Below are positions 24,548-49,516 of a stretch of 64,000 bases of DNA, piece by piece. The DNA lies in the NCBI GenBank assembly GCA_017631795.1, contig JAGBSO010000022.1, positions 62,001-126,000 on the forward strand. Direction: 5' to 3'. Position numbers and translations under genes: made by a program. Position 1 is the first letter of the stretch, and each line of letters begins with the position of its first letter. The notes under the pieces are model-generated. The model searched no databases. It was not told where the DNA came from and saw only the letters and a list, made by a program, of their open reading frames with translations. Source of the stretch: Clostridia bacterium. GTDB lineage: Bacteria; Bacillota; Clostridia; Oscillospirales; Acutalibacteraceae.

Positions 24548-25507
24548 TCAGATTTTAACCGCTCTGAATTTAAGATTCACATAATATTCTTCATCTGTAT
24601 CTGTTGTGTCTTCGTAAATAATATATGCGGTGTCATTTTTTATGCACAAATCAGAATATCCGCCGCAACAATCAATTTTTAATTTTTTTATTGTTTTAAA
24701 ATCATCTGTTGTGATTTTAAGAGTAAGATTTCTTCTTTCTGTCTTATCATCGCAATTTGTATGGCATACTGACTTCCCTGAATTTATCATACTTCCCTGA
24801 CAAACCGGGTCGGAAAATCTTTTATCAGCCCCCATAATCTGCCAGTCTGATATACCGTCAGGACTTTTTGCAAAAAAACGAAGTCTGCAATCATTCTCAT
24901 TACGGATTGACATAACAACAGAATCATCACTCAGCAACGCTGCTGCACATTCACTGGGATTCACAAGGATATCATAGTTTATTATTTCACCCACACACCA
25001 GGTTATTCCGTTGTCTTTACTGTACAATGTCGAAACAAATGACGGTCTGTGGGCTTTTTTGTTTTCATTGTTGAGAGCAAACCAGACAGGAATAATCATT
25101 GTGCCGTCACACAAAGTCAGACCGTGCCCCGGTCCGAGTGCAACAACAGTATGCTCAATATGGTCAAAAACTTCTGTTATTTCAACTGGTACAGACCAGT
25201 TTGCACCGTCATCTGTACTGACGGAATGAAAAACTCTTTTATAGTTTTCGCAAAAAAGAAAATGCAGAGAATCACCGTCTGCAATCATAACGGGATTGTT
25301 GAGAGTCTGTCCTTCACCACTGATTATTTTGACAGTCTGCCATGTTTTGCCGTCATCTGTACTTCTTACTATCTTTATATCAATTTCAGACCAATCGGAA
25401 TCGGACTTGCGGGATTCATAATATGCCAGAAATGAACCAAATCCCGTGCAGACTATGCCCGGGATCCGATGATGATAATATTTTCTGCCGTGATTTTCTA
25501 TAATCAT
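24548..25507 (-). CDS. Sialidase/BNR-repeat family protein, intracellular
   Basis: 319 residues of a six-bladed propeller type. The sialidase Arg motif is seen as HHRIPGIV (about 12-19). Asp-boxes are STDDGKTW, STDDGANW and SKDNGITW. Further motifs are NPSECAAAL, SIRNEN, a distal Arg (ERRNLTL) and GGYSDL with the likely nucleophile Tyr. No signal peptide, so it should act in the cytoplasm on imported sialosides. Its start lies 3 bases after the N-acetylneuraminate lyase gene ends. GH33-type exo-sialidase is the best reading; a non-sialidase BNR hydrolase remains possible. Confidence 0.8.
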   Translation of the reverse strand: MIIENHGRKYYHHRIPGIVCTGFGSFLAYYESRKSDSDWSEIDIKIVRSTDDGKTWQTVKIISGEGQTLNNPVMIADGDSLHFLFCENYKRVFHSVSTDDGANWSVPVEITEVFDHIEHTVVALGPGHGLTLCDGTMIIPVWFALNNENKKAHRPSFVSTLYSKDNGITWCVGEIINYDILVNPSECAAALLSDDSVVMSIRNENDCRLRFFAKSPDGISDWQIMGADKRFSDPVCQGSMINSGKSVCHTNCDDKTERRNLTLKITTDDFKTIKKLKIDCCGGYSDLCIKNDTAYIIYEDTTDTDEEYYVNLKFRAVKI

Positions 25508-25510
25508 AAA

Positions 25511-26380
25511 TTACAGCAAGGGAAGAATTTCTTTTTCGATGATCTTCTTTTCTTCTGTTGTAAGCTCTCTGAAAGGCTTTCTGCAGTTGCCGAAATCAAA
25601 TCCGAGCTGATTGAGAACTTCCTTCTGAGCAGGCATGAGTTCAATGCTGAACAGAGTTTCAACAACCTTGTTGATATCGTGCTGAATTTCACGTGCTTCT
25701 TCAATTTTTCCTTCTTTTACAAGCTCCATGATTTTTACAAACTTGTTTGCCATGAAGTTATATGTGCTGCCGATACCACCGTCTGCCCCCATGACAATAC
25801 CGCCAAGGAACATTTCATCAAAACCGTTGAGTGCAATTTTTTCGGGATATTTAGCCTTTACACGTTCAAGTGTGAAGAAATCGCTTGATGTGTGCTTGAA
25901 GCCGAGGAATTTATCATTTTCAAAGAACTGATCAAATTCTTTTATAGTCATTGTGACGCCTGTATTCATGGGGAAATTGTAAACAAACATGGGAATATTC
26001 ACACTGTCTGCAACACCGAAATAATAGTCCTTTATTTCATTGAAAGTCATCTTGTAATAGAAAGGTGCAACAGATGAAATAGCATCTGCGCCGACCTTTT
26101 CTGCGTGTTTTGCAAGGTCGATTGCTTCATTCTGATTAAGAGTACCGATATGAGCAATAATTGTCTTATCCTTTGCAATTGCTCTTACTGCTTCGAGAAG
26201 ATACTTTCTCTCATCTGTTGTCATATGAAATGCTTCTGCAGTTGAGCCGCCTACATAAAAACCTGAAACGCCCATATCAATATTGTGTTTTATGAGTTTT
26301 TCAAGAGCAGCATCGTTGATTTTATCATTTTTATCAAAGGGAGTAAGCTGAGCTGTGAAAATGCCTTTAAAATTTGCCAT
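25511..26380 (-). CDS. nanA: N-acetylneuraminate lyase
   Basis: 289 residues of the DapA/NanA TIM-barrel family. GGSTAEAFHM near 47, YNFPMNTG (catalytic Tyr) near 137, the Schiff-base Lys in GFKHTSSDFFTLERV near 163, and GIGSTYN near 207. These last two are characteristic of N-acetylneuraminate lyases rather than dihydrodipicolinate synthases. It splits sialic acid into pyruvate and N-acetylmannosamine. Start 26380 is preferred over GTG 26389, since AAAGGTG is correctly placed only for it. Led by a TTGACA promoter and followed by the sialidase-like gene. No nanE or nanK lies in the window. A 2-keto-3-deoxy-fuconate aldolase role, as for DapA homologues in fucose loci, is less likely. Confidence 0.87.
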   Translation of the reverse strand: MANFKGIFTAQLTPFDKNDKINDAALEKLIKHNIDMGVSGFYVGGSTAEAFHMTTDERKYLLEAVRAIAKDKTIIAHIGTLNQNEAIDLAKHAEKVGADAISSVAPFYYKMTFNEIKDYYFGVADSVNIPMFVYNFPMNTGVTMTIKEFDQFFENDKFLGFKHTSSDFFTLERVKAKYPEKIALNGFDEMFLGGIVMGADGGIGSTYNFMANKFVKIMELVKEGKIEEAREIQHDINKVVETLFSIELMPAQKEVLNQLGFDFGNCRKPFRELTTEEKKIIEKEILPLL

Positions 26381-26423
26381 ATTTATCACCTTTATTTCAG
26401 TTTTCAGAATTTCTGTATTTTAT

Positions 26424-26775: not shown

Positions 26776-28251
26776 ATGACAACACAGGAATATCTGCGTC
26801 TGATTGATGAAGTAAATGAAAACGGAAAATATAAAGCAGACTGGACTTCCCTTGCAAAACATAAAGTGCCTGAATGGTATATGCACGATAAACTGGGTGT
26901 ATTCATTCATTGGGGTATTTACTCTGTACCCGCATTCGGTAATGAATGGTATTCAAGAGGAATGTATGACAAAAGTGTTCGTGAATTTGAGCACCACAGA
27001 AATACATGGGGACCTCAGGATAAATTCGGATATAAAGATTTTATTCCGATGTTCAAAGCAGAGAAATTCGATGCTGAAAAGTGGGTTTCTCTTTTCAGAA
27101 AAGCAGGCATGAAATATGTTATGCCTGTTGCCGAGCATCATGACGGTTTTGCCATGTATGGAACTGAGTTCAACCGTTGGAATTCGGTAGAAATGGGCCC
27201 TTGCAGAGATGTTGTGGGTGAACTCAAGGCTGAATGTGAAAAGCAGGGACTTGAACTTTGTGCATCAACTCACCGTGCAGAGCATTACTTTTTCATGAAT
27301 CCCGGCAGACTCTGCGACAGCGATGTGAATGATGAAGAATATGCAGATTTCTACGGACCTGCTGTTTACTGTGAAGAATTTGCCCCCGAAATCATACATA
27401 TAACAACTGCAGACACATACTCAAAGGGTGCAAGCAAGGAATGGCTTGAAGACTGGCTTGTACGCACTTGTGAGCTTGTTGACAGATATCATCCGTCAGT
27501 TTTATATTTTGACTGGTGGATTCACAATCACTCTTTCAAACCTTATCTCAAAAAGCTTGCGGCATATTATTACAACCGTGCAGAAGAATGGGGCAAGGAA
27601 GTTACTATCAACTACAAGCATGAAGCATTTCCGCCGAATGTTGCAACATTTGATGTTGAACGCGGTGCATTGACCGGTATTTCACCGATTTACTGGCAGA
27701 CAGACACTGCAATCGGCAAATGCTCATGGGGATACCGATTTGACAATGAATACAAGAGTTCAAGACAGGTTATCTGTGACCTTATCGACATCGTTTCAAA
27801 AAACGGAAATCTGCTCATAAACATCGGACCGAAAGCAGACGGCACAATCACCTACGAAGAAACTCAGGTGCTTCTTGACATGGGTGAATGGCTCAGCATC
27901 AACGGTGAAGGTATTTACGGTACTACTTTCTGGAAACAATTCGGTGAGGGTGAAGTGAATGCTGAAGACGGATTCTTCAAAGACGGTGATGAAAAGGCTT
28001 TCACAACCGAAGACTTCAGATTCACATACAAAGACGGATATCTTTATGCTTTCCAGATGCGTCCGTCTGAAACAGTAAAAATAAAAACTCTCAGAAAACA
28101 TAATCCTCATGATTATCTGATTGAAAGCATTGAGCTTCTGGGCTGTGATGACAAAATCGATTTCACAAGAGATGAAGAAGCTCTGACAATAAATCTCAGA
28201 AACAAATTCAGCAGCGATCTGCCGATTTGTTTCAAAATAGCAATAGGGTGA
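26776..28251 (+). CDS. Alpha-L-fucosidase, GH29, intracellular
   Basis: 491 residues. GH29 signatures are KLGVFIHWGIYSVPAFGNEW near 37, AEHHDGFAMY near 120 and YFDWW with the nucleophile Asp246. No signal peptide, so cytoplasmic. Start 26776 (AGGGGTG box 6 bases upstream) is chosen over a longer frame whose first 48 residues cover the promoter region. It removes terminal L-fucose from oligosaccharides. First gene of a tight six-gene operon (26776-34020), so its released sugar is likely the substrate of the next enzymes. A second GH29 of a different subgroup is at 59734. Confidence 0.9.
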   Translation: MTTQEYLRLIDEVNENGKYKADWTSLAKHKVPEWYMHDKLGVFIHWGIYSVPAFGNEWYSRGMYDKSVREFEHHRNTWGPQDKFGYKDFIPMFKAEKFDAEKWVSLFRKAGMKYVMPVAEHHDGFAMYGTEFNRWNSVEMGPCRDVVGELKAECEKQGLELCASTHRAEHYFFMNPGRLCDSDVNDEEYADFYGPAVYCEEFAPEIIHITTADTYSKGASKEWLEDWLVRTCELVDRYHPSVLYFDWWIHNHSFKPYLKKLAAYYYNRAEEWGKEVTINYKHEAFPPNVATFDVERGALTGISPIYWQTDTAIGKCSWGYRFDNEYKSSRQVICDLIDIVSKNGNLLINIGPKADGTITYEETQVLLDMGEWLSINGEGIYGTTFWKQFGEGEVNAEDGFFKDGDEKAFTTEDFRFTYKDGYLYAFQMRPSETVKIKTLRKHNPHDYLIESIELLGCDDKIDFTRDEEALTINLRNKFSSDLPICFKIAIG

Positions 28252-28257
28252 TAAATT

Positions 28258-29463
28258 ATGAAAACTTACGGTACATATTTTCAGAATGACAAAGATCTGC
28301 CCATAAAATACGGTGAGATCAATCTCATAAATCCCGACAGACAGCGTCTCAGAGGCGAACCTGCACTCAAGGGAATTGAAGCTTATCCTGTTTTTCAGGG
28401 GTTCTGCGGTACTGATTTCGAGCTTATGAAAATGGGCAGAGACAACAAGCTTTCAGCAAAATTTCCTGAGGGTGAAAACAGACTCATAAACGGACACGAA
28501 GGCGTTGTATGGGTACCGTCAGAGAACAGATTTGCAATTGTTCTTATCCGTGGCGGTGACAGCTGGGACCCCACAAGATACACCGAAGACGAAACATATT
28601 TTGAATACGGTTGCGACGGCGCAGACGGTCTTTTCTGTGACAAAAATTATTTCAACCCCGACATGCTTCTGCATCTGCCTGAAAAATATGAAGGCATGAC
28701 AAAATTACCCCTTTCCGTTGCAAAAAGACTTTCATTTGCTGACCCTTACGCATGTGCTGTTTTCCAGCTTGAAAGAATGGAAGACCTTGGTGCTGCTCAG
28801 AATTTCCGTGTTGAAATGGCAAAGCACAAATGCTCTGAAGAAGAAGCAAGAAACCTTGCAAAGGAAAATATTTTTACAAAGACAGTTGTATTCGGTCTTG
28901 GTATGACAGGACTTTTCATTGCAGATCAGATAAGAAGAAATCATCCCGATGCTCAGATTCTTTTTGTGGGCAGAAGTGATGAAAACTGCAAAAAGGTCAC
29001 ATTCTCAAAGGAAATTGCAGGTGCGGATTATCTCTCAACTGCAGGACTTTCTGAAGAAGAAACTGCTAAGGCAATAATTGAAAAACTCGGCGGCAGAGCC
29101 ACAATGTTTGTCGGCACAAGCGGCAGTAACGTTGAGCACCGTGTTGCTTTTCAGCATAAAGTGCTCGGTTGCAACGGTATTTATAACAGTTTTTCTCTGG
29201 GACCCGTTGTGCAGTATGACACAATGCCTTTCGGCTTCGAAAACCATCTGATTTTCGCTTCAATCAACTTCCGTCAGGCTCATATGGAAAAGGCAATTGA
29301 CGTGCTTGTTGACAGCAGATATGACGAAGTTGTTGAGCTTATTGAAAAAGATGAGTTTATCTCAAATCCGCTTGATGCGTATGAAAACAAGATTTTCTGC
29401 AAGGGTGCACCCCTTAAGACTGCAGTTATCTGGAACAAAGATTACATAAAGGAAGATGAATAA
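28258..29463 (+). CDS. Medium-chain zinc dehydrogenase, glucose-1-dehydrogenase-like
   Basis: 401 residues. The catalytic zinc site is suggested by FCGTDFELM (Cys) and NGHEGVV (His, Glu). The segment RGGDSWDPTRYTEDETYFEYG replaces the usual four-Cys structural-zinc loop, as in archaeal-type glucose dehydrogenases. The Rossmann motif GLGMTGLF lies near 217. Such enzymes oxidise an aldose at C1 to the lactone. Beside a fucosidase and a lactonase-like amidohydrolase, L-fucose or another hexose is a reasonable substrate, but this is inferred. It starts 7 bases after the fucosidase. Confidence 0.82.
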   Translation: MKTYGTYFQNDKDLPIKYGEINLINPDRQRLRGEPALKGIEAYPVFQGFCGTDFELMKMGRDNKLSAKFPEGENRLINGHEGVVWVPSENRFAIVLIRGGDSWDPTRYTEDETYFEYGCDGADGLFCDKNYFNPDMLLHLPEKYEGMTKLPLSVAKRLSFADPYACAVFQLERMEDLGAAQNFRVEMAKHKCSEEEARNLAKENIFTKTVVFGLGMTGLFIADQIRRNHPDAQILFVGRSDENCKKVTFSKEIAGADYLSTAGLSEEETAKAIIEKLGGRATMFVGTSGSNVEHRVAFQHKVLGCNGIYNSFSLGPVVQYDTMPFGFENHLIFASINFRQAHMEKAIDVLVDSRYDEVVELIEKDEFISNPLDAYENKIFCKGAPLKTAVIWNKDYIKEDE

Positions 29464-29464
29464 T

Positions 29465-30484
29465 ATGAAAGCAATTGTTATCCCCAATCCCAACGAAATC
29501 GAAATCAGAGATATTCCGATGCCCGAAGTAAAAGAGGGTGAAGCACTCCTTAAAGTGAAATATGTCGGCATATGCGGTGCTGACGTGGCTTCTTTCACAG
29601 GGAATCAGCCTTTCACCACATATCCCAGAATCCCCGGCCATGAGTTTTCTGCAGAAATCGTTTCAATTCCCGAAAACGACAAAGGACTCAAAGCGGGTGA
29701 TATCGTAACATGCAATCCTTATTTCAACTGCGGTGAATGTTATTCATGCGAAAGAGGATTTGTAAACTGCTGCACAGACAATCAGACCATGGGTGTCCAG
29801 CGTGACGGTGCTTTCTGCGAATACATCTCAATGCCCGTTGAAAGAATCTATGACGGCAAAGGTCTTTCCGCACAGGAACTGGCACTTATCGAACCCTTTG
29901 CAATTTCTCAGCACGCAGTATCACGTGCAACAATAAAAGAAACAGACAATGTTCTCATTATCGGTGCAGGTCCTATCGGTCTTTTTGCTCTTCTTGCAGC
30001 AAAGCAGAAATGCAAAAGAATTGTTGTGGCAGATATTCTTGACAACCGTCTTGCTCTTGCAAAGGAATACGGTGCAGATGCAGTTGTGAACACAAAAACT
30101 CAGTCTCTTGAAGAATTCACAAAAGAATTTACAGACGGCAACGGTTTTGATGTATGTATCGAAGCATGCGGTGCACCCGAAACATTCCTTGGCTGTATTG
30201 ATAATGCTGCATTTGCCGCAAACATCATTCTTATCGGTAACGGCAAAAGAGAGACAAATTTTATTCATTCAATTATCCTCAAAAAAGAGCTTAACATCCA
30301 CGGCAGCAGAAATGCTTTAAAGGATGATTTTATCAACAATATTGACATCGTTGCAGGTAAAAAAGCTGATGTTATGAAAATGGTCAGCGGTATTTATGAC
30401 ATGGAAAATGCACTTGACGCATTCAAAGCATTGGCAAACAACGACGGCACACTTGCAAAACTTCTTATAAAAATAGGTGACTGA
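29465..30484 (+). CDS. Zinc-dependent alcohol/polyol dehydrogenase
   Basis: 339 residues, the standard MDR length. Catalytic zinc site in CGADVASF and PGHEFSAEIV. Structural-zinc loop with four Cys (CGECYSCERGFVNCC, about 93-107). Rossmann motif IGAGPIGLFALLAA. It resembles sorbitol, threonine and galactitol-phosphate dehydrogenases. Start ATG 29465 gives the standard MKAIVI N-terminus; an ATG at 29456 inside the previous gene is possible. Substrate in this operon is unknown: perhaps a keto-deoxy acid or polyol intermediate. Confidence 0.85.
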   Translation: MKAIVIPNPNEIEIRDIPMPEVKEGEALLKVKYVGICGADVASFTGNQPFTTYPRIPGHEFSAEIVSIPENDKGLKAGDIVTCNPYFNCGECYSCERGFVNCCTDNQTMGVQRDGAFCEYISMPVERIYDGKGLSAQELALIEPFAISQHAVSRATIKETDNVLIIGAGPIGLFALLAAKQKCKRIVVADILDNRLALAKEYGADAVVNTKTQSLEEFTKEFTDGNGFDVCIEACGAPETFLGCIDNAAFAANIILIGNGKRETNFIHSIILKKELNIHGSRNALKDDFINNIDIVAGKKADVMKMVSGIYDMENALDAFKALANNDGTLAKLLIKIGD

Positions 30485-30485
30485 A

Positions 30486-31802
30486 ATGAAAGAAACAGTA
30501 ATTCAGTTTGGTGAAGGCAATTTCCTGAGAGGATTTTTTGATTGCTTTCTTGATGTGATGAACAAAAAAGGGCTTTATGACGGCAAAGCTGTTGTGATTC
30601 AGCCCAGAGAAGGCGGAAAATGTGCGCTTCTCAATGCTCAGGATTGCAATTATAATCTCTATCTCAGAGGTATAGAAAACAATGAAATAAAGCAGGAGCA
30701 TCATTTTATTGAGTCTGTTTCAAGAGGCATTGACCCCTATAAAAATTTTGATGAATACATGGCTCTTGCAGAAAATCCTGATTTCAGATTTGTTGTTTCA
30801 AACACAACAGAAGCAGGAATTGCATTTGATGAAAGCTGCAGTTTCAATGATACTCCCTGCAAAGGATTCCCTGCAAAACTCACTCAGCTTCTTTACAGAA
30901 GATATAAAAACGGTCTTGACGGTTTTGTCTTCCTGCCCTGCGAGCTTATCGACAACAACGGTGATGAGCTGAAAAAGTGCATTCTGAAATATGCAAAGCT
31001 CTGGAATCTTGAAACAGAGTTTGTCAATTGGTTCAATGAGAAAAACACATTTGCAAACACTCTTGTTGACAGAATCGTTACAGGATATCCGAATGATGAA
31101 ACAAAAGATATCCACCCCGACGACAAATTCCTTGACACAGCTGAAATTTTCCATCTGTGGGTTATTGAAGGCGATTTTGAAAGTGAATTACCCCTTAAAA
31201 AGGCAGGATTCAATGTCATCTGGACAGATGATGCAAAGCCTTTCAAAAAAATAAAGGTAAGAATTCTCAACGGTGCACACACTTCCCTTGTGGCAGGTGC
31301 ATTGCTTTCAGGCATTGAAACTGTCGGAGAAGCGATGAATAACGAAGTTACATATTCATTCCTTAACAAAGCCATGAAAGAAGAAATTCTGCCCACAATC
31401 GGTGAAAATGATGAAAGCATTTCCTTTGCAAACAGCGTTTTTGACCGTTTCAGAAATCCTTTCATCCAGCACAAATGGCGTTCAATTGCGCTCAATTCAG
31501 TAAGCAAATTCTCCGTGCGTGTGCTTCCCACACTTCTCGAATACAAAGAAAAATACGGTGCATACCCCAAGTGCCTTACAATGGCTCTTGCATATCTTCT
31601 TTATTTCTACAAAAACGATACTCCCGAAGATGCAGCACAGGTCATTGAAACAATGAAAAATGACGGCATTGCCGATATTCTTGCAAACACAGAATTGTGG
31701 CAGGCTGACCTTTCAGAAATGACAGAAACCGTTACTGAATACTACAACAAAATTGATGCACTCGGTGCAAAGGATGCAATGAAATGGATACTGTCAGAAT
31801 AA
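30486..31802 (+). CDS. uxaB: Tagaturonate reductase / mannitol dehydrogenase family protein
   Basis: 438 residues, somewhat shorter than E. coli UxaB. N-terminal QFGEGNFLRGFFDCFLDVM binds NAD(H). KVRILNGAHTSLVAG near 257 holds the catalytic Lys/Asn/His set of the long-chain mannitol dehydrogenase family. UxaB reduces D-tagaturonate to D-altronate. The next gene is UxaA-like, which fits, but there is no uxaC isomerase here, and the operon begins with a fucosidase, so a related 6-deoxy or keto acid substrate is possible. Overlaps both neighbours (stop at 31802, uxaA start at 31784). Confidence 0.82.
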   Translation: MKETVIQFGEGNFLRGFFDCFLDVMNKKGLYDGKAVVIQPREGGKCALLNAQDCNYNLYLRGIENNEIKQEHHFIESVSRGIDPYKNFDEYMALAENPDFRFVVSNTTEAGIAFDESCSFNDTPCKGFPAKLTQLLYRRYKNGLDGFVFLPCELIDNNGDELKKCILKYAKLWNLETEFVNWFNEKNTFANTLVDRIVTGYPNDETKDIHPDDKFLDTAEIFHLWVIEGDFESELPLKKAGFNVIWTDDAKPFKKIKVRILNGAHTSLVAGALLSGIETVGEAMNNEVTYSFLNKAMKEEILPTIGENDESISFANSVFDRFRNPFIQHKWRSIALNSVSKFSVRVLPTLLEYKEKYGAYPKCLTMALAYLLYFYKNDTPEDAAQVIETMKNDGIADILANTELWQADLSEMTETVTEYYNKIDALGAKDAMKWILSE

Positions 31803-33157
31803 ACGAGAAAGACAATGTCTGTGTAAACCTTGAAACAGGGCATAAAATCGCTCTCTGCGATATTCCCGAAGGTGCAGACATTATAAAATACGGTTTTCCT
31901 ATCGGCTATGCTACCGAAAACATCAGCAAAGGCGACAGTGTGCATTCCCACAACATGAAAACAAAGCTTGGCGATATTCTTTCTTATGAATACAAGCCTG
32001 ATTTCAAAAAGCCTGCACCTGAAGAGCCTTTCACAATCAATGCCTATATCCGCCGAAACGGTGACATAGGCATCAGAAACGATATCTGGATTGTGCCCAC
32101 AGTCGGTTGTGTAAACAGCATTGCAAAACAGCTGAGCGAAAAAACAGGAGCAATCTGTTTCTCTCATCCTTACGGATGCAGTCAGCTCGGTGACGACAAC
32201 AAAGTTACTCAGCTTGTGCTCAGAGGTCTTATCAATCATCCGAATGCAGGCGGTGTGCTTGTGCTCGGTCTCGGGTGTGAAAATAACAATATTCCCGAAA
32301 TGCAGAAAGTGCTCGGCACATGGGACGACGAAAGAGTTAAATTTCTTTCCGTTCAGGACTGTGAAAATGAACTTGAAAAAGGCATTGAACTCATCAAAGA
32401 ATTAAAGAATACTGTTTCTCAGGATAAACGTCAGGCGGTGCCCGTTTCAAAGCTTAAAATCGGTCTTAAATGCGGTGGCTCGGACGGTTTTTCGGGTATT
32501 ACCGCAAACGCTGTTGCAGGAATAGTGACAGACAGAATCTGCGCTATGGGCGGTACAGCAGTCCTCACGGAAGTACCGGAAATGTTCGGTGCGGAAACAG
32601 TGCTTTTTGACAGATGCGTAAACAAAGAAATCTTTGAAAAAAGTGTAAAGCTTATCAATGATTTCAAGCAGTATTTCAAAGATCACGGTGAACCTGTTTC
32701 GGAAAATCCGTCTCCCGGCAACAAAGAAGGCGGTATCACGACTCTTGAAGAAAAATCTCTCGGATGCGTGCAGAAAGGCGGTACTGCGCCGATTGTTGAT
32801 GTGCTCGATTACGGAGATACTGTCTGCAAAGCGGGTCTGAATCTCCTGAACGGACCGGGAAATGACATTGTGTCAATCACAAATCTTTCTGCTGTCGGAT
32901 GTCACCTTGTACTGTTCACAACAGGCAGAGGCACTCCGCTCGGAGGTGCTGTGCCAACAATAAAAATCGCATCAAATGACACCATTGCAACTAAAAAGAA
33001 ACATTGGATTGACTTTTCTGCTTTCGGTTTCAACAAGCAGGAAAAAGCCGATGAATTACTGAATCTTATCAAAAAAGTTGCAGACGGTGAATTGACAAAA
33101 AATGAAATCCAGGGCAATCGTGAAATTGCAATTTTTAAAGACGGAGTAACATTATGA
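31784..33157 (+). CDS. uxaA: Altronate dehydratase family protein (UxaA-like)
   Basis: 457 residues, full two-domain form. N-terminal SAF domain (about 1-75), then the large dehydratase domain with RNDIWIVPTVGCVN, SHPYGCSQLGDD, LGLGCENN, KCGGSDGFSGITANA, SPGNKEGGITTLEEKSLGC and TTGRGTPLGG. These Cys/His/Glu residues form the iron-dependent active site. The family removes water from altronate, galactarate or related sugar acids to give 2-keto-3-deoxy acids. In Campylobacter a split UxaA homologue lies in the oxidative L-fucose locus, so L-fuconate is a plausible substrate here. Overlaps uxaB by 19 bases. Confidence 0.87.
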   Translation: MDTVRINEKDNVCVNLETGHKIALCDIPEGADIIKYGFPIGYATENISKGDSVHSHNMKTKLGDILSYEYKPDFKKPAPEEPFTINAYIRRNGDIGIRNDIWIVPTVGCVNSIAKQLSEKTGAICFSHPYGCSQLGDDNKVTQLVLRGLINHPNAGGVLVLGLGCENNNIPEMQKVLGTWDDERVKFLSVQDCENELEKGIELIKELKNTVSQDKRQAVPVSKLKIGLKCGGSDGFSGITANAVAGIVTDRICAMGGTAVLTEVPEMFGAETVLFDRCVNKEIFEKSVKLINDFKQYFKDHGEPVSENPSPGNKEGGITTLEEKSLGCVQKGGTAPIVDVLDYGDTVCKAGLNLLNGPGNDIVSITNLSAVGCHLVLFTTGRGTPLGGAVPTIKIASNDTIATKKKHWIDFSAFGFNKQEKADELLNLIKKVADGELTKNEIQGNREIAIFKDGVTL

Positions 33158-34020
33158 TTATTGACGCTCATGCACATTTATGGAAAAAACAGAACGGAAT
33201 TGTAAACGGAAAGCCTGTTTTTGATGTAGGCGGCGGAAAAAGCAACTTCGGCGGTGAAATCCGTCAGATGATGCCCGCATACATGACTGACGGTGAAAAC
33301 AGTGAAGAAAGATTCCTTGCAAACATGGATTATGCACGTGTCAGCGGTGCTGTTATCACTCAGGAATATATCGACGGCAATCAGGATGAATATCTTCTTT
33401 CATGCAAAAATGACAGATTGAAAATCTGCGCTCTGTATGAAGAAAAACCGCTGGGCGATATTTCTGCTTTTGACGGAATAAAACTTTGTGCAGGCCGTCT
33501 TGCAGACAAAAATCTGCTCAATCATCTGCATCCCTTTGAAGTTGCCGCTGAAAAGGGAAAATTCATATCAATTGACCTTGCAGACGGTGCTGAGCAGACT
33601 GACATGATGCAGAAAATCGCAGAAATGTTCCCCGACCTGAGAATTGCAGTAGGTCACTTCGGTATGGTTACCCGTGACGGATGGCTCAGCCAGATAAAAC
33701 TTGCAAAGAATAAGAATGTGTTTATTGAAAGCGGCGGTATCACATGGCTTTTCAACAGCGAATTCTACCCCTTCCCTTCTGCTGTTGATGCAATCAATGA
33801 AGCGGCAGACCTTGTAGGTTTTGAAAAACTTATGTGGGGCAGCGATTACCCACGCACAATGACAGCAATCACTTATAAAATGAGTTATGATTTTGTTGAA
33901 AAGACAACCAAAATCTCAGAAGCAAACAAAAAACTCTTCCTTGGTGAAAATGCTGTTAAATTCTACGGTTTCGGCAATCTGACCGTGCCCGAAAAAATCA
34001 GAAATATGGTTGAAGATTAA
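33154..34020 (+). CDS. Amidohydrolase_2 family protein, lactonase-like
   Basis: 288 residues, TIM barrel. Metal motif DAHAHLW at 4-10, VGHFG (His) near 167, and LMWGSDYPRT (Asp) near 229. Related proteins include L-fucono- and L-rhamnono-lactonases and decarboxylases (COG3618/COG2159). With the upstream dehydrogenase it would open a sugar lactone to the acid that the UxaA-like enzyme dehydrates. Starts 4 bases inside uxaA and ends the operon, followed by a strong terminator. Confidence 0.82.
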   Translation: MIIDAHAHLWKKQNGIVNGKPVFDVGGGKSNFGGEIRQMMPAYMTDGENSEERFLANMDYARVSGAVITQEYIDGNQDEYLLSCKNDRLKICALYEEKPLGDISAFDGIKLCAGRLADKNLLNHLHPFEVAAEKGKFISIDLADGAEQTDMMQKIAEMFPDLRIAVGHFGMVTRDGWLSQIKLAKNKNVFIESGGITWLFNSEFYPFPSAVDAINEAADLVGFEKLMWGSDYPRTMTAITYKMSYDFVEKTTKISEANKKLFLGENAVKFYGFGNLTVPEKIRNMVED

Positions 34021-34072: not shown

Positions 34073-34879
34073 TTATACAACAAAATACACTTCTGCATAA
34101 TTTTCAATAATATTTCTTGCCTGAATTTTAGCTTCGGGGTCTTTATCGAGTGCATGACCTGAGTTTTCATAAACCAGAAAATCATTTTTCACACCTGCGT
34201 TATGAAGTTTTTCAAGGAAATCATGTATGTGCGATGGTGGAATAAGTTCATCCTTTTTTCCGTAAAAAACTGCAGTGGGAATGCATTTTTCCGAAACATA
34301 CTCTGCGGGAGAAATCTTTTTAAGTGCAGTCTGCGGTATCTCATTCAGGAATGTTTCTTTTGTAATCCTGACACCGCTGCATTTTGAAAGAATATCATAT
34401 TTCCAGTCTTCAAATTCACCCGATATACCAAGCAGAAAATCAGATGCAGAGCAATCAACGGGCGGACAATAGACACAGGCTGCAACAGGATTCACTGCCG
34501 CATCACTTTTTCTTGTGTAAACATAAAGCAGTGCAAGATGAGCTCCTGCAGAGCCGCCTGACAGAATCAGTTTATCAATGTTAAAGCCTTGCTTTTCACA
34601 TTCATTTTTTATGGTTTTAATTGCTGATGTTATGTCATCAAGCTCTTCTGAAACATGTATTTCTTCCGAAACATAGCGATAATTTATCGAAGCGCAGATA
34701 TATCCCAGACTGCAGAAATGCTGTGCATCTTCCGAATGGGCACTTTTGTCTCCGCTGTGCCATCCGCCGCCGTGAATATAAAGAATTACGCCTGATTCTG
34801 ATTTTGCATTATCCGGGAAAAATATATCAAGCTTATGTCTTTCGTGGTCTCCATAGGAAATGTCTGTCAGAATAGTCAT
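34073..34879 (-). CDS. Alpha/beta hydrolase, esterase/lipase-like
   Basis: 268 residues. The oxyanion-hole motif HGGGWHSGD lies near 35, the nucleophile Ser in LSGGSAGAHLAL near 107 (GxSxG), Asp in FYGKKDELIP near 205 and His in NSGHALD near 245. No signal peptide, so cytoplasmic. Likely a carbohydrate or small-ester esterase (BD-FAE type) that deacetylates imported glycans. The start is one of two adjacent ATGs (34882 or 34879); the second has the better spacing to GGGGA. Directly follows the WbsX-like gene and overlaps its end. Confidence 0.82.
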   Translation of the reverse strand: MTILTDISYGDHERHKLDIFFPDNAKSESGVILYIHGGGWHSGDKSAHSEDAQHFCSLGYICASINYRYVSEEIHVSEELDDITSAIKTIKNECEKQGFNIDKLILSGGSAGAHLALLYVYTRKSDAAVNPVAACVYCPPVDCSASDFLLGISGEFEDWKYDILSKCSGVRITKETFLNEIPQTALKKISPAEYVSEKCIPTAVFYGKKDELIPPSHIHDFLEKLHNAGVKNDFLVYENSGHALDKDPEAKIQARNIIENYAEVYFVV

Positions 34880-34881
34880 CA

Positions 34882-36012
34882 TCAATCCCCTGTGAATACT
34901 TCTTTTATGGCTTCAAGATAACCGTAACCGTAAAGATCATCGGGCTGAAGATAGCTCGTTTCTGTCCATTCATTCCAGCTGTTTACAGTAATAAACGGTG
35001 CATTTATCTTTCCGTTTTCAATTGCTGAATCAGTCAGCGCCTTGATTTTTTCGCAGGCTGTCTTAAAGTTTCCGGGAGTATTGTTTTCAACAACACCGGG
35101 AACAAAATTCTTGAATCTTACATTATTATCCCAGCCGACGGAAATATTAGGATAATACGGGATATTGATGCTGTCGGCAGCATCTTTATAAGCCTGTGCA
35201 TAGCTTTCTGCAATATCATTGAAATCACCGTCAAAATCGGTTATTCCGCCCCAGCTGTAATTTGTAACAGAATCAACACCAAGGTAATCATACATCTCGG
35301 CAGAAACTACGCCCTTTTGTGAATCTTCGTCTTTAAGCCAGTTGAAGACACGGTTTCTCCAATGAACAACCTGAAAATGCAGTCCACTGAAGCCTGCCGC
35401 AACAACTTTTCTGCGGAATTCTTCAAGTCCTTTTTTGCATTCATCACTTGTTCCGAATGAACGGATGAAATTATCAATATCAAAAATCATGTAAACGGGA
35501 CAACCGTCTATGCAGTAATAATTTTCCTTTTTGAAATACTTTTCGATTGTTCTGTCGCAAATTTCAGAAAAGATCTGCGGAGTTACAACACCTGACCATA
35601 TAACTGTGTCAAGGTCATTATCCGAATTGCGTTTATCCCACAGATGTGTTGCATTGTGGTTTGCCCACATAAGGCAGAATTTCATCTTTGTGTTATTTCT
35701 TGCTTTAAGAAAACCGTCATTCAGGCAGTTTTCAAGAAACGGTCTGTTATCATACCAATACCAGTCATAAATAAAGACATTCACACCGTGTTCAACAGCA
35801 CAGTCTATCTGCATTTCCATAACACGGCTGTCTGCTTCATTCACATAACCCCATGTGGGGATACGAGGCCATCTGCAACCCTTGTAGCCTCTGTCTGTCA
35901 TGACTTTTACAGTCTGCCATTCGCCGTATCCTTCAGGCCAGAAAATGCGTGTACGGGGTTCATCACCCGTATATGACGGCCATACAAATGCTGCAATATC
36001 ATATTTTTTCAT
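34882..36012 (-). CDS. GH99-like / WbsX domain protein
   Basis: 376 residues, a single TIM-barrel-type domain as in the Glyco_tran_WbsX (GH99-like) family. Typical features are FVWPSYTGDEPRTRIFWPEG at the N-terminus, VNVFIYDWYWYDNRPFLENC near 75-95, CLMWANHN near 115, and VNSWNEWTE near the C-terminus. Family members are endo-acting mannosidases or polysaccharide-modifying proteins. No signal peptide, so it would act in the cytoplasm. It pairs with the esterase in one operon and lies beside a GH38 mannosidase on the other strand, suggesting mannose-containing oligosaccharides. Substrate not proven. Confidence 0.82.
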   Translation of the reverse strand: MKKYDIAAFVWPSYTGDEPRTRIFWPEGYGEWQTVKVMTDRGYKGCRWPRIPTWGYVNEADSRVMEMQIDCAVEHGVNVFIYDWYWYDNRPFLENCLNDGFLKARNNTKMKFCLMWANHNATHLWDKRNSDNDLDTVIWSGVVTPQIFSEICDRTIEKYFKKENYYCIDGCPVYMIFDIDNFIRSFGTSDECKKGLEEFRRKVVAAGFSGLHFQVVHWRNRVFNWLKDEDSQKGVVSAEMYDYLGVDSVTNYSWGGITDFDGDFNDIAESYAQAYKDAADSINIPYYPNISVGWDNNVRFKNFVPGVVENNTPGNFKTACEKIKALTDSAIENGKINAPFITVNSWNEWTETSYLQPDDLYGYGYLEAIKEVFTGD

Positions 36013-38698: not shown

Positions 38699-40021
38699 TT
38701 ACTTTATGACATTGTAGATTTCTACTGCAACTTCTGCTCTTGTAACAGTCTTGAAAGCATTGCCTGAAAGCACAAGTTTCACGGCTGAAACAAAGAACTT
38801 GAACATATCAACAAAGCTTGCATCGCCTGAAAGATTGAATAATGCTTTGCTGAGATTAAGCTTTGTAACTTCATCTGCGCTGTCTGTTACTGCGTATGTG
38901 CCTGTAACATTATTAAGGATTTCTGACAATTCAGCCATTGTGATTTTAGCATCTGCACCGAAAGCTGTTTCATCAATGCTGTTCATATATCCGTTGAGAT
39001 ACATATACTCAGCAGCTTTATAATAAGGTGCTCTGATTGAAACGTCTGAGAATGAGAATCTTGCATCGGGAAGTTCTTCAAGAATTCTGTCTGCAATGTG
39101 TCTGTGACCTGCTTTTGTGGGATGGCAAATTTCAACAACAGTACCTGTTGTGTCAACATAGACATAACCGTATTTTTCCTGATTGTCGATCATGTGCTTG
39201 TTACCGTAAGCAATCATTGCATCTTCAAACAGCTTTGATACAGCATCAGGCTCTGAAACAACATCAGGTGCACCTTCTTCTGTCTTAAGGTATGTGGGGA
39301 ACATGCCGACTGCAACAACTGTTACATCAGGATTGTTTTCATAGATGTATTCAATGATGTATTCCCAGTTTTTATTAAGGTTTGAGAAAGCATAATAAGC
39401 TGCTTCGGGAAGAACTGCTGCGATATCGTCAAGAGCATTGAGATAATCTGCAAGTTCAATGATTTTGCCGATGATATCATCTTCAAAAGTTGCTTTTTCA
39501 AGGAACTCTCTGAGCTGAGTTCTGAACTCTTCAGGAAGACGATTTGCGAACTGAACATCTTCAAGAGTCCAACCGAGATATGCACCCCAGTCATTACCGC
39601 CGATACCGATAATGATAAGATCTGATTCTGCAATACCCTGACGCATTTCAGGAGATTTTGCAAGGATTTCATCTTTGGGTGTACGAGGAACCTCAGTGAA
39701 AAGATAAGGATCATCTACGGGATTGTAGTTATCATCAAGCATGCAACGAAGCTCGATTGTTCTGAAACCGGGACAAGCCATAGGAAGGAATTCTGCACCG
39801 AGATCATCTGCAACGTATGCTGCATAAGAATCATCAACTCGAGTGAATTCGCTCATTTCATCGCCGTAATCAGTGAATCCGCTGGCTTCACTGTCACCGA
39901 GAAGCATTACTTTTTTGTATTCATGATACTGTTTTTCACCGTCAGCCGCAAAGCACACGAATGAACCTGAAACAAGTATAAGTGTGAGCAGAACAGCTAT
40001 TGTTCTTTTCAAAGTTTTCAT
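38699..40021 (-). CDS. Secreted SGNH hydrolase with SLH-like C-terminus (copy 1)
   Basis: 440 residues. A signal peptide (TLKRTIAVLLTLILVSGSF) ends before AADGEK. The SGNH domain has catalytic Ser44 in LLGDSEASGF, block III GIGGNDWGAY, and the C-terminal His in EICHPTKAGH, where Glu replaces the common Asp of the DxxH block. After FSFSDV (about 335) come SLH-like segments (YKAAEYMYLNGYMNS... and TRAEVAVEIYNVI). Probably an esterase that deacylates or deacetylates cell-surface or dietary polysaccharide, held in the wall. Tandem paralogue of the next gene; the two leaders are almost identical in DNA. Confidence 0.85.
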   Translation of the reverse strand: MKTLKRTIAVLLTLILVSGSFVCFAADGEKQYHEYKKVMLLGDSEASGFTDYGDEMSEFTRVDDSYAAYVADDLGAEFLPMACPGFRTIELRCMLDDNYNPVDDPYLFTEVPRTPKDEILAKSPEMRQGIAESDLIIIGIGGNDWGAYLGWTLEDVQFANRLPEEFRTQLREFLEKATFEDDIIGKIIELADYLNALDDIAAVLPEAAYYAFSNLNKNWEYIIEYIYENNPDVTVVAVGMFPTYLKTEEGAPDVVSEPDAVSKLFEDAMIAYGNKHMIDNQEKYGYVYVDTTGTVVEICHPTKAGHRHIADRILEELPDARFSFSDVSIRAPYYKAAEYMYLNGYMNSIDETAFGADAKITMAELSEILNNVTGTYAVTDSADEVTKLNLSKALFNLSGDASFVDMFKFFVSAVKLVLSGNAFKTVTRAEVAVEIYNVIK

Positions 40022-40039
40022 GGTTTTCTGCCTCCGTTA

Positions 40040-40086
40040 AACAACAAATGTATGGCAACATCATAACAGACAATGTTACCATACAT
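40040..40086 (-). terminator. Terminator-like hairpin between the SGNH paralogues
   Basis: A 13-base stem with one wobble (40049-40061 with 40073-40085) is followed on the minus strand by TTTGTTGTTT. Partial read-through into copy 1 is possible, since no strong separate promoter was found. Confidence 0.65.
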
Positions 40087-40094
40087 CAATTACA

Positions 40095-41417
40095 TTATTT
40101 TATAATCTGATAGATTTCGATTGCAGCTTCTGCTCTTGTGACAGCCTTGAAACCGTTACCTGACAATACAAGCTTAATCATTGCAATAAAATGTTTGAAC
40201 AGGCTGATAATACCAGTGTCACCTGAGATATTATACACAGCATTAGAAAGTTCAAGCTTTGTGACTTCACTTGTGCTGTCTGTTACAGAATATGAACCTG
40301 TAACCTTATTGAGAATTTCTGAGAATTCAGCCTTTGTGATCTTTGCATCACCGCCGAATGTTGTTTCGCTGATGCTGTTCATGTAACCGTTGAGATACAT
40401 ATATTCCATTGCACCGTATGCGGGGTATTTGAATTCAACGTCTGAGAATGAGAATCTTGCATCGGGAAGAGCTTCGAGGATTCTGTCTGCAATGTGTCTG
40501 TGGCCTGCTGCTGTGGGATGAGCAGTTTCAACGATTGTACCTGTTGTATCAACATAGATATAACCGTACTTTTCCTGATTGTCGATCATGGGCTTGTTGC
40601 CGTTGTCAATCATCATCTGTTCAACTTTGACTGCAAGAGGATCGGGCTCTGCAACGTTATCAGGCTCACCTTCGGGAGTTGAAAGAGTTGTGTTGAACAT
40701 ACCGACTGCAACAAGAGTTACATCAGGATTCAATCTGTAGATGTCTTCTACAATAATAGGCCAGTTCTCGTTAAGAGTTGAGAATGCGTATTCGATTGCT
40801 TTGGGCATGATTGCAAGGAATTCCTCAACAGCATTGAATGTCTGAGCAAGCTCAACCATTGTTTTGATTACATTGTCTTCAAGAGAAGCTTTTGCAAGAT
40901 ATTCTCTGAGAGCAGCTTCAAATTCTTCGGGAAGAGGATGGTCTTCGATGAAGTCTTCCATAACCCAGCCGAGATATGCGCCCCAGTCATTACCGCCGAT
41001 TGCGATAGTGATAAGGTCTGCTTCTGCAATAGCCTGACGCATTTCATCTTTTTTTGCCAAGATTTCTTCAGCTGAATGATGAGGTACTGCTTCAAAAAGA
41101 TAGGGATCGTTTGAAACATAGTCATCTTCAAGCATTGTACGAAGTTCAATTGTTCTGAAACCGGGACATGCCATGGGCGTATACTGTTCAACACCAAGGT
41201 CTTTTGCAAGGTATGCAGCATATGAATCTTCAACATAAGTGAATTCACTCATGATGTAATCATAATCTCTGAAACCGCTTGCCAGGCTATCGCCTAAAAG
41301 CACAGACTTAGTGTATTTGTGGTACTGTTTTTCGCCGTCAGCCGCAAAACACACGAATGAACTTGAAACAAGTATAAGTGTGAGCAGAACAGCTATTGTT
41401 CTTTTCAAAGTTTTCAT
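40095..41417 (-). CDS. Secreted SGNH hydrolase with SLH-like C-terminus (copy 2)
   Basis: 440 residues, collinear with copy 1. Signal peptide, catalytic Ser in VLLGDSLASGF, IAIGGNDWGAYLGW, and ETAHPTAAGH near 320 (again Glu in place of Asp in DxxH). SLH-like segments follow (YGAMEYMYLNGYMNSI; KAEFSEILNK; TRAEAAIEIYQII). It keeps the canonical GDSL, unlike copy 1 (GDSE). Likely secreted, wall-associated esterase. Promoter at 41450-41478 and a GGAGG box before the ATG. Confidence 0.85.
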   Translation of the reverse strand: MKTLKRTIAVLLTLILVSSSFVCFAADGEKQYHKYTKSVLLGDSLASGFRDYDYIMSEFTYVEDSYAAYLAKDLGVEQYTPMACPGFRTIELRTMLEDDYVSNDPYLFEAVPHHSAEEILAKKDEMRQAIAEADLITIAIGGNDWGAYLGWVMEDFIEDHPLPEEFEAALREYLAKASLEDNVIKTMVELAQTFNAVEEFLAIMPKAIEYAFSTLNENWPIIVEDIYRLNPDVTLVAVGMFNTTLSTPEGEPDNVAEPDPLAVKVEQMMIDNGNKPMIDNQEKYGYIYVDTTGTIVETAHPTAAGHRHIADRILEALPDARFSFSDVEFKYPAYGAMEYMYLNGYMNSISETTFGGDAKITKAEFSEILNKVTGSYSVTDSTSEVTKLELSNAVYNISGDTGIISLFKHFIAMIKLVLSGNGFKAVTRAEAAIEIYQIIK

Positions 41418-42898: not shown

Positions 42899-43492
42899 AT
42901 GGCAAGAAAAAAATCTGTAAAATCTTTTGCTTTTCCTACAGTTGAGCAGATCGAAAAGGAAATTGCAAGAGAAAAATATAACCGCAAATATAAAAAAGTG
43001 CTCAAAAGCACAATGGCTTCGCTGATTGTTGTTGCAGCTATTGCAGTGCTTATTGCAACACTCGCACTTCCTGTTCTGCAAATCAAAGGAAGCAGCATGG
43101 AGCCCACTCTGAATGATGAAGAAATCGTCATTCTTCTGAAAACACCAAATCTGAAAAGAGGTCAGCTATGCTGCTTTTCTTATCAGAACAAACTGCTGAT
43201 TAAACGAGTAATCGGTATACCCGGTGACAGTATATCCATACACGAAGACGGAACGGTTTATCTTAACGGCAGTGCACTGGACGAGCCCTATGTAATAGAC
43301 AAAGCATTGGGTGAATGCGATATCAATTTCCCCGTGAATGTCACGGATAATCACTATTTCATTCTCGGCGATCACAGATCAACATCCATCGACAGCAGAA
43401 ACTCTGTTGTGGGACTGATAAGTGAAGAACAGATTGTGGGAAGAATCTTTTTCCGTATCTGGCCGTTTGAATCAATAGGCCATGTAGAATAA
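42899..43492 (+). CDS. lepB: Signal peptidase I of the pilus locus
   Basis: 197 residues. One N-terminal membrane helix (about 36-60), catalytic Ser66 in KGSSMEPTL, Lys102 in LLIKRVIGIPGDSI, and the closing box GDHRSTSIDSRNSVVG near 157-172. AGGAG lies 10 bases before the ATG. Signal peptidase I enzymes inside sortase-pilus operons (SipA type) either mature or chaperone pilins. Here both the Ser and Lys are kept, so it should be active, unlike SipA of group A Streptococcus in which catalytic residues differ. Confidence 0.92.
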   Translation: MARKKSVKSFAFPTVEQIEKEIAREKYNRKYKKVLKSTMASLIVVAAIAVLIATLALPVLQIKGSSMEPTLNDEEIVILLKTPNLKRGQLCCFSYQNKLLIKRVIGIPGDSISIHEDGTVYLNGSALDEPYVIDKALGECDINFPVNVTDNHYFILGDHRSTSIDSRNSVVGLISEEQIVGRIFFRIWPFESIGHVE

Positions 43493-43530
43493 CAAAACAA
43501 AAGACACTGATTGAAAGGAGGCGGCAGATA

Positions 43531-47964: not shown

Positions 47965-48054
47965 TCTCCCAACCGCAAAAAAATACGATTGCGACGGAGA
48001 ATGCAATAAATTCAGAAATAAATTGCAAATTAAAAAAAGAAAGGATGTTACTTC

Positions 48055-49509
48055 ATGAAAAAATTATTTGCAGTTTTATTGGCAATCGCTCTCGTTCTCT
48101 CAATGGGAACAATCGCTCTCGCAGCAGACACAGGCACAATCACAATCACTAATGCCGTTGACGGTGCAGACTACGAAATCTACAAGATGCTCGGCTTTGC
48201 TCCTTCAAACGCAGCAGGTGACAAAGGTATCTACACAATCGAAGCAGGTTGGGAAAATTTCTTCAGCACAGCACCTGCAACAGATTACTTTGTAGTTACA
48301 GAAAATGCAGGACAGAAAACTGTATCAGCTAAAGAAGGTGTTACTGCAGTTGACCAGACTCTTGCAAAGGCAGCTATCGCTTATGCAGAAGAAAACAGCA
48401 TTGCAGCAACAAAGACTGAAACAGCAGCAGGCGAAACTGTTGAATTCACAGGTCTTGCACTCGGCTACTATGCAATTGATACTTCTCTCGGTACTCTTTG
48501 CGCTCTTACAAACACAAATTCAGACTTCACAGCAGTTGAAAAGAACGAAAAGCCTGACATCGACAAATATGTTCAGGAAGACAGTGAAATGGCAAATGCT
48601 GACGAAGGCTGGGGCAAAGTAAACGATGCTGACATCGACCAGAAAGTCAACTACAAATCAACAGTTACTGTTGGTCTCGGTGCTACAAATTATGTAATGC
48701 ACGATACAATGGAAGCCGGTCTTACATTCAACAATGACGTTACTGTTGAGCTTGCTGACGGCACAGCAGTTGCAGCAACAAACTACACTGTAGTTTACCC
48801 CGCAACAGACGGTCATACATTTGATGTAAAATTCAACAATGATTTCATCGCAGGTCTTGCACAGGGTACAGAGTTCACAGTTTACTACTCAGCAACTCTT
48901 AATGAGAATGCAAACATCGTAACAGACGGTAACGACAACACTGTTTACCTTTCATACGGTGAAGACAGCACATGGGAAACTGCTGAACACAAGACAACAA
49001 CTTACACATGGAAGATGGATGTTCTCAAGTACACAATGGACGGCACAAACAAAGTAAGCCTTGCAGGTGCTAAATTCCAGCTTCTTGACAAAGACGGAAA
49101 CGCAATCACTTTCACACAGGTTGCAGGTGCAGCTGTTCCCACATACAAGGTAGATGCTGAAGGTACTGTTACAGAAATCACAACTGATGAAAACGGTAAA
49201 TTCGAATTCGTAGGTCTTGATGAAGGCACATACAAACTTCACGAAACAGAAGCTCCCGAAGGTTACAATAAACTCGCAGCTGATATCGAAGTTGTTATCA
49301 CAAGCACATATGATGAAGCAGCTCTTACAGCTACATACAAAATTAACAGTGCAGATCCCGCAACAATCGAAGTAGAAAACAAGACAGGTGGTCTTCTTCC
49401 CGAAACAGGCGGCATCGGTACAACAATCTTCTACGTTATCGGCGGTCTTCTTATGGTAGCAGCAGCAGTTCTTCTTATCTCAAAGAAGAGAATGGCTGCA
49501 ACAGCATGA
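48055..49509 (+). CDS. Major pilin (LPETG backbone subunit)
   Basis: 484 residues. Signal peptide (KKLFAVLLAIALVLSMGTIA), an N-terminal pilin domain with EKPDIDKYVQEDS and WGKVNDADI near 165-195, and a C-terminal Cna_B domain with the E-box HETEAPEGYNK near 400. LPETG lies at 448-452, followed by a hydrophobic helix and KKRMAATA. Unusually rich in Ala/Thr and with biased codons, as for an abundant secreted protein. Sortase C joins subunits by isopeptide bonds. No clear YPKN pilin lysine motif is seen (VVYPATDG sits at the similar place). Starts 90 bases after the tip gene with AAAGGATG as ribosome site. Confidence 0.92.
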   Translation: MKKLFAVLLAIALVLSMGTIALAADTGTITITNAVDGADYEIYKMLGFAPSNAAGDKGIYTIEAGWENFFSTAPATDYFVVTENAGQKTVSAKEGVTAVDQTLAKAAIAYAEENSIAATKTETAAGETVEFTGLALGYYAIDTSLGTLCALTNTNSDFTAVEKNEKPDIDKYVQEDSEMANADEGWGKVNDADIDQKVNYKSTVTVGLGATNYVMHDTMEAGLTFNNDVTVELADGTAVAATNYTVVYPATDGHTFDVKFNNDFIAGLAQGTEFTVYYSATLNENANIVTDGNDNTVYLSYGEDSTWETAEHKTTTYTWKMDVLKYTMDGTNKVSLAGAKFQLLDKDGNAITFTQVAGAAVPTYKVDAEGTVTEITTDENGKFEFVGLDEGTYKLHETEAPEGYNKLAADIEVVITSTYDEAALTATYKINSADPATIEVENKTGGLLPETGGIGTTIFYVIGGLLMVAAAVLLISKKRMAATA

Positions 49510-49516
49510 AGGAACC

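Follow-up and report, generated by a model that had tools for sequence, protein, structure and literature searches.

The breakdown of L-galactose has been worked out in few bacteria only. The pathway of Bacteroides (Phocaeicola) vulgatus (Hobbs 2014) reportedly involves the products of BVU_0219, BVU_0220 and BVU_0222, including a lactonase. Another example, outlined in PMC12632266, is the dual L-glucose/L-galactose pathway encoded by lguABCDEF in Luteolibacter LG18. The sugar itself occurs as a minor side-chain residue, described as being freed from corn-bran xylan by BACOVA_03438 (PMC4491172) and from red-algal porphyran by BpGH29 (PMC12316285). Here we analyzed a 64,000-nucleotide stretch of a Clostridia bacterium of the family Acutalibacteraceae (contig JAGBSO010000022.1; hereafter the window), which carries a six-gene operon (26776-34020, + strand). 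We estimate a probability of about three in four that this operon is an L-galactose release-and-catabolism unit, a reading of its reactions and substrate that is drawn from the genes themselves.

The operon lies exactly where an earlier reading of the same DNA (the original prediction) had placed it, with six genes that indeed nearly touch or overlap: the gene for a 401-residue dehydrogenase (DH401) starts 6 bp after the end of a GH29 glycosidase gene, and all other junctions are overlaps of 4 to 19 bp. The families then named (GH29, two zinc dehydrogenases, a UxaB-like, a UxaA-like and an amidohydrolase protein) were confirmed by Pfam and NCBIfam or, in the case of DH401, by motif, profile and fold. 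That an intracellular glycosidase is combined, within a single operon, with enzymes to oxidize an aldose, hydrolyse its lactone and dehydrate the sugar acid is likewise supported. The deoxy-sugar L-fucose as the main substrate is not, as the GH29 enzyme groups with an exo-alpha-L-galactosidase.

From L-galactose to D-tagaturonate: the proposed route

In the route that we propose, the GH29 enzyme would cut terminal alpha-L-galactose from imported oligosaccharides inside the cell, DH401 would oxidize L-galactose at C1 to the lactone and the amidohydrolase would open the latter to L-galactonate. The second zinc dehydrogenase (MDR342) would oxidize C5 to yield D-tagaturonate, which UxaB would reduce again to D-altronate with a net epimerization at C5. 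UxaA would dehydrate D-altronate to 2-keto-3-deoxygluconate (KDG), and KdgK and Eda, encoded elsewhere, would take KDG to pyruvate and glyceraldehyde-3-phosphate. UxaB, UxaA, KdgK and Eda would be common to this route and to galacturonate breakdown. The presence of UxaB, regarded as unusual in the original prediction, is so only against the L-fucose scheme of Campylobacter; it is expected in an L-galactose route, since MDR342 and UxaB would together perform a C5 oxidation followed by re-reduction.

One argument for the substrate is chemical. By deduction, oxidation at C1 and C5 leads to D-tagaturonate, among the aldohexoses, only from L-galactose or the rare D-altrose. By homology, the operon proteins UxaB and UxaA are D-tagaturonate and D-altronate enzymes, with identities to their E. 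coli namesakes of 41.8% and (over 468 columns) 52.6%, respectively. For MDR342 the best PDB match is RspB (4ilk), and its identities to E. coli LgoD (34.7%) and RspB (33.9%) are too similar to single out a substrate; on its sequence, MDR342 is in the right superfamily and branch for an LgoD-like zinc enzyme of the medium-chain dehydrogenase/reductase (MDR) type. The amidohydrolase is nearest in fold to the COG3618/PDC-hydrolase lactonases (first Foldseek matches 4i6k and 4dlf, of COG3618), with a weak NCBIfam match to L-fuconolactonase (30 bits against a cut-off of 400).

The GH29 enzyme provides support for L-galactose by being nearest to BpGH29. Its residues 18-488 align with this exo-alpha-L-galactosidase at 440 bits, as compared to 230 bits for the best fucosidase, and its best PDB matches (7ljj, 7snk and 7lnp) are all BpGH29 over the full catalytic length. 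The same preference is seen in a GH29 protein of another locus (L074; 48% identical to the window enzyme), with 378 bits for BpGH29 and 206 for a fucosidase. A second GH29 protein of the window (59734-60756, - strand) shows the opposite pattern, matching the fucosidase AlfC at 476 bits and BpGH29 at 94-96. No signal peptide was seen in the operon GH29 when read from its ATG start, just 5' of which lies a G-rich stretch resembling a ribosome-binding site. Further support comes from GH95 genes near the operon, in which threonine is found in seven of the eight distinct loci that span the position proposed to discriminate the two activities, and histidine in one genome (L070/L108). According to PMC4491172, whose authors term the rule tentative, threonine marks the alpha-L-galactosidase BACOVA_03438 and histidine the fucosidase. 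A comparison of GH29 active-site residues was considered as proof of L-galactose specificity and discarded as ambiguous. In locus L069 (6609-8080) the GH29 gene adjoining the operon is split into two overlapping frames, by a frameshift or an assembly error.

DH401 itself gave no Pfam or NCBIfam match at the reporting limit of E<=0.001. It carries CGTD and GHE motifs, and a profile built from 23 sequences, with homologues that share 66-88% identity with the window protein, detected archaeal glucose dehydrogenases in hmmsearch, albeit weakly (Sulfolobus 2cd9, E 2.3e-4; Haloferax, E 1.7e-3). The best Foldseek matches of its AlphaFold2 model (mean pLDDT 76, pTM 0.81) are the glucose dehydrogenases 2b5w, 3wid and 2cdb (E 4.7e-14). 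Fold alone cannot name the substrate, because VIA-align gives a tie between sorbitol dehydrogenase (Z 24.8, rmsd 3.4, 322 aligned) and glucose dehydrogenase (Z 24.7, rmsd 3.6, 329 aligned). Residues C50, H80, E81, R239 and S240 are invariant in the 23 homologues; by motif, the first three are the zinc site, and R239 and S240 presumably, by analogy, mark the NADP-type position. The place of the classic structural-zinc lobe is taken by a conserved low-confidence stretch (99-128). Judged by motifs, profile match and predicted fold, DH401 is a zinc MDR dehydrogenase. It therefore differs in kind from the first dehydrogenases of known L-galactose pathways, which are aldo-keto reductases. Neither an MDR L-galactose dehydrogenase nor L-galactose catabolism in Clostridia was found in the open-licence literature.

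Table 1. Genes of the operon and the adjoining esterase gene, with proposed functions
Gene product	Position	Strand	Family evidence
GH29 glycosidase, probably exo-alpha-L-galactosidase	26776..28251	+	Pfam Alpha_L_fucos, 337 bits
DH401 (401 aa), zinc MDR of glucose-dehydrogenase type; proposed L-galactose 1-dehydrogenase, probably NADP+	28258..29463	+	
MDR342, zinc hexonate 5-dehydrogenase; proposed L-galactonate 5-dehydrogenase yielding D-tagaturonate	29456..30484	+	ADH_N+ADH_zinc_N
UxaB, predicted D-tagaturonate reductase	30477..31802	+	Mannitol_dh; NF002969 'tagaturonate reductase', 521.7 bits (cut-off 359)
UxaA, predicted D-altronate dehydratase, single full-length chain	31784..33157	+	GD_AH; PF20629/PF04295
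Amidohydrolase-2 protein, proposed L-galactono-lactonase	33154..34020	+	Amidohydro_2, PF04909
BD-FAE-type esterase, convergent with the operon	34073..34885	-	PF20434, 115 bits

Conservation of the operon and its link to galacturonate breakdown

The distribution of DH401 was assessed in 391 sampled genomes of the class, where only the window's own genome has it, and in 398 genomes of the family, 23 of which carry it (out of 27 matches, four that were weak and partial, with E between 4e-4 and 7e-4, were dropped). The full order DH401-MDR342-UxaB-UxaA-amidohydrolase is kept in 14 of the 22 other family loci, or in 15 of 23 if the window is included; among the remaining eight, UxaB is absent from one, UxaB and UxaA are both absent from five, and DH401 stands alone in two. 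A broader survey of named GTDB genomes yielded 307 stretches encoding a DH401 relative, of which 80 were kept as named loci, 61 of them with at least 6.1 kb downstream of DH401. Both MDR342 and the amidohydrolase are found in 57 of these 61 loci and all five catabolic genes in 37, so the gene cluster is not a chance assembly. Some loci of the two sets are the same contigs (e.g. L070/L108 and L069/L106), which makes the counts overlapping rather than additive.

The triad of DH401, MDR342 and amidohydrolase occurs without UxaB and UxaA in 20 of the 61 loci. The UxaB-UxaA pair lies upstream of the triad in L122 and L139, follows the amidohydrolase in L133 and is divergent in L141, the contig of which ends earlier. 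The triad is thus the core of the operon and UxaB-UxaA a movable module. As the recurring triad would supply the three reactions required for D-tagaturonate formation, this arrangement supports L-galactose as the substrate.

Some features of the neighbourhood vary. In L087 a manganese-catalase gene (8388-10001) occupies the place where GH29 would stand. A GH110-type (GLAA-B barrel) protein is encoded after or near the operon in L117, L118, L130, L150-L154, L156, L161 and L165. A ruminant host is named for 39 of the 80 listed loci (our own count).

The source genome, 2.47 Mb in 54 contigs with a completeness of 97.6%, appears equipped for the remaining steps. While UxaB and UxaA for the conversion of D-tagaturonate to KDG are in the operon, genes for a KDG-kinase-like protein of the PfkB family (contig C44) and for KDPG (2-keto-3-deoxy-6-phosphogluconate) aldolase, i.e. 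Eda (C31, which also encodes UxuA), are elsewhere, together with a single UxaC (C26). Eda scores above its model cut-off, and relatives (73-84%) of the PfkB homologue in L019 adjoin Eda in L246-L249. All 23 DH401 genomes have one UxaC, and 22 have Eda, the exception being 82% complete. The occurrence of UxaC and Eda, and of KdgK homologues beside Eda, supports the L-galactose reading. The original prediction of a non-phosphorylative end is not borne out: the operon UxaA, which shares 53% of its residues with the altronate dehydratase of E. coli, is the only copy in a genome that has UxaC, and KdgK-like and Eda proteins are encoded elsewhere.

A further link to galacturonate breakdown is the dehydratase itself. 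Exactly one UxaA (counted as PF20629 proteins) was found in each of the 23 DH401 genomes, whereas of the 375 family genomes of the same draw lacking DH401 only 80 have any (Fisher p 4e-15, ignoring relatedness). In seven of the 23 genomes the sole UxaA is outside the operon, on another contig (7/7 against 80/375, Fisher p 3e-5, with the same disregard of relatedness), and the operon would therefore feed the galacturonate pathway. In one of these arrangements (L235; genome G779, contig C50) the sole UxaA is flanked by UxaC and a further UxaB; this UxaA is 52% and this UxaB 40% identical to the window enzymes, and the two UxaB/UxaA lineages appear to substitute for each other. If a single UxaA serves both routes, the product of the operon has to be D-tagaturonate or D-altronate.

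Competing substrates

Several observations weigh against L-galactose. The operon GH29 has tyrosine where BpGH29 has tryptophan, two residues before the aligned nucleophile, and BpGH29 falls in a GH29 sequence cluster that, as described in PMC11189522, also contains fucosidases; both speak against taking a pocket for L-galactose rather than L-fucose for granted. The closest relative locus (L087) is an operon without GH29, which makes GH29 an optional member. Neither the amidohydrolase nor DH401 has a close characterized relative. By the coverage rule, FucI is near the operon in five of the 80 named loci, with L121 as an additional case, and GH110 follows the operon in 12. GH110 is an alpha-1,3-galactosidase family known for blood-group-type glycans, where L-fucose rather than L-galactose is expected. 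Genes for endo-alpha-GalNAc-ase-like and GH35 proteins are also among the neighbours and, together with GH110, look like host-glycan enzymes, for which fucose would be the expected sugar.

Some of these observations point towards L-fucose, i.e. 6-deoxy-L-galactose, which might be processed by the same C5-epimerizing chemistry. DH401 and the amidohydrolase would yield L-fuconate, MDR342 a 5-keto-6-deoxy acid, UxaB 6-deoxy-D-altronate and UxaA a 2-keto-3,6-dideoxy acid, from which aldol cleavage without phosphorylation would release pyruvate and D-lactaldehyde. GH29 and GH95 are families that release L-fucose, and GH29-like proteins (at least 43% identity) and GH95 neighbour the operon in 12 and eight of the 80 loci, respectively, in addition to the GH110 and FucI genes mentioned above. 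The control for these enrichments (33 loci, 545 kb) consists of loci selected for their FucI, Eda, UxaA and kinase genes rather than at random, which makes the GH29, GH110 and GH95 figures indicative only. Promiscuity does occur, as fucose dehydrogenases of Burkholderia and Campylobacter are reported in PMC6946681 to have some L-galactose activity. On the other hand, the operon has no gene for a NanA/DapA- or Eda-type aldolase (a tblastn search of the 80 loci with the NanA of the window and the Eda of its genome as seeds returned only the NanA of L087; FucF, a short-chain dehydrogenase, and FucG, a hydrolase, were not searched for), C5 epimerization brings no gain when C6 cannot be phosphorylated, and the structure nearest to GH29 is an L-galactosidase. 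Moreover, the genome already has FucI plus a kinase: a protein on contig C39 scores 1030 bits (cut-off 775) with the equivalog model of L-fucose isomerase and adjoins an FGGY kinase of the rhamnulokinase type. We consider this alternative unlikely. Similarly unlikely is a dual version, in which DH401 would define a new family of MDR enzymes that oxidize C1 of both L-galactose and L-fucose. Here L-fucose would be C5-epimerized through a 6-deoxy-tagaturonate analogue to a 6-deoxy-KDG analogue, to be split unphosphorylated into pyruvate and D-lactaldehyde. No L-fucose route via C5 epimerization was found described in the open-licence literature.

The original prediction itself envisaged a different scheme, with the UxaA-like enzyme dehydrating L-fuconate directly in a non-phosphorylating L-fucose pathway and UxaB and MDR342 as side enzymes. 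As summarized in PMC11199699, the known route of this kind consists of L-fucose dehydrogenase, lactonase, L-fuconate dehydratase and either an aldolase or a 4-dehydrogenase/hydrolase, and the title of a study cited there connects altronate-dehydratase-family proteins with L-fucose pathways. Yet UxaA is the sole altronate dehydratase of a genome that has UxaC, the conserved MDR342 and UxaB would be left without a role, and a DapA-type aldolase for 2-keto-3-deoxy-L-fuconate is missing from the operon; we regard this scheme as very unlikely. Its premise that FucI, FucK and FucA are absent holds within the window but not genome-wide. The genome encodes FucI beside an FGGY kinase, as well as UxaC and aldolases of the rhamnulose-1-P type; as far as gene presence goes, this is one part of what had been named as speaking against it, the other being strict galacturonate specificity of the enzymes (among the class II aldolases, the best models are rhamnulose-1-P aldolase, and one 408-aa tandem protein is below all cut-offs). 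Least probable of all, in our view, is a plain galacturonate operon, in which UxaB and UxaA would serve pectin galacturonate only and DH401, MDR342 and the amidohydrolase would be unrelated. It would agree with UxaC and a single UxaA in all 23 genomes, but not with a triad that stays together even when UxaB-UxaA is elsewhere, nor with the different placements of that pair in L122, L133, L139 and L141, nor with the presence of UxaA in every DH401 genome, including the seven where it is outside the operon.

Other candidates were rejected on chemical or homology grounds. D-arabinose would give a pentonate without a secondary C5 alcohol for MDR342 and UxaB to epimerize. D-galactose released by the GH110 and GH35 neighbours would, upon oxidation at C1 and C5, give the mirror-image L-tagaturonate, an acid not expected to be a substrate of the shared UxaA. 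A DapA-family gene (25511-26389) considered as a source of the deoxy-acid aldolase best matches N-acetylneuraminate lyase (NF003164, 344 bits, cut-off 281; PDB lyases), adjoins a sialidase-like gene and is not found in the other loci except L087.

Surroundings of the operon and comparison with known systems

The DapA-family gene belongs to a small sialic-acid unit (24548-26389, - strand), divergent from the operon, in which a sialidase-like BNR protein (319 aa) adjoins the N-acetylneuraminate lyase with NanA-type motifs. On the other side, the convergent esterase (Table 1) has relatives near three of the 80 loci; one may guess that it removes esters from imported oligosaccharides and, from its position, that grass-xylan side chains are the sugar source. 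A scan for promoters and terminators gave promoters near chance level (37 found, 28.7 expected). Further downstream are a tandem pair of GDSL-lipase-like paralogues, each of 440 aa and nearly the same in their signal regions (38699-41417, -; Pfam on the first one), a Gram-positive pilus-type cluster (42899-52169, +; Pfam covered 48055-49506) of signal peptidase, large repeat surface protein, LPXTG-anchored pilin backbone and sortase-like genes, and genes for a SIS-domain (MurQ-like) protein and, behind it, a BadF/NagK-like kinase (52207-54089, +), probably an amino-sugar recycling pair.

If the L-galactose reading is true, a conserved unannotated family (the 307 encoding stretches in GTDB) gives herbivore-gut Clostridia the use of L-galactose, with a first enzyme from another superfamily as a non-orthologous replacement. 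It would also call for caution with GH29 'fucosidase' labels beside UxaA/UxaB, which may conceal L-galactosidases.

Among proteins of solved structure, the operon GH29 is closest to BpGH29, which is encoded in a porphyran locus of Bacteroides plebeius. BpGH29 acts on algal porphyran oligosaccharides, as described in PMC12316285, and differs by the tryptophan near the nucleophile. In E. coli (NC_000913), LgoD, UxaB and UxaA follow the same order of C5 oxidation, reduction and dehydration (35%, 42% and 53% identity), but start at L-galactonate and are encoded by scattered genes. The B. vulgatus pathway shares with the proposed one the aldose oxidation, lactone opening and C5 oxidation to D-tagaturonate ahead of the galacturonate enzymes, its three dedicated genes corresponding to the DH401-amidohydrolase-MDR342 triad. 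The two differ in the first enzyme, as BVU_0219 is placed with known L-galactose dehydrogenases in PMC12632266 and DH401 would be a zinc MDR, and in that UxaB, UxaA and a GH29 gene of L-galactosidase type often share the operon in DH401 loci. For Luteolibacter LG18, the same source assigns to LguA, LguD, LguC and LguB the steps that we propose for DH401, MDR342, UxaB and UxaA, respectively. LguA clusters there with GALDH_ARATH and BVU_0219 rather than with MDRs, the cluster as described includes neither a lactonase nor a glycosidase gene, and LguE (Eda) is inside it, whereas Eda is outside the operon in the window genome; its authors found no organism that has the six orthologues while lacking lguG. 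Overall, downstream of the first step the proposed route would equal those of B. vulgatus and Luteolibacter, with sequence support for its later steps, and what would be new is the superfamily of the first enzyme, the GH29 gene of L-galactosidase type in the operon, and the lineage.

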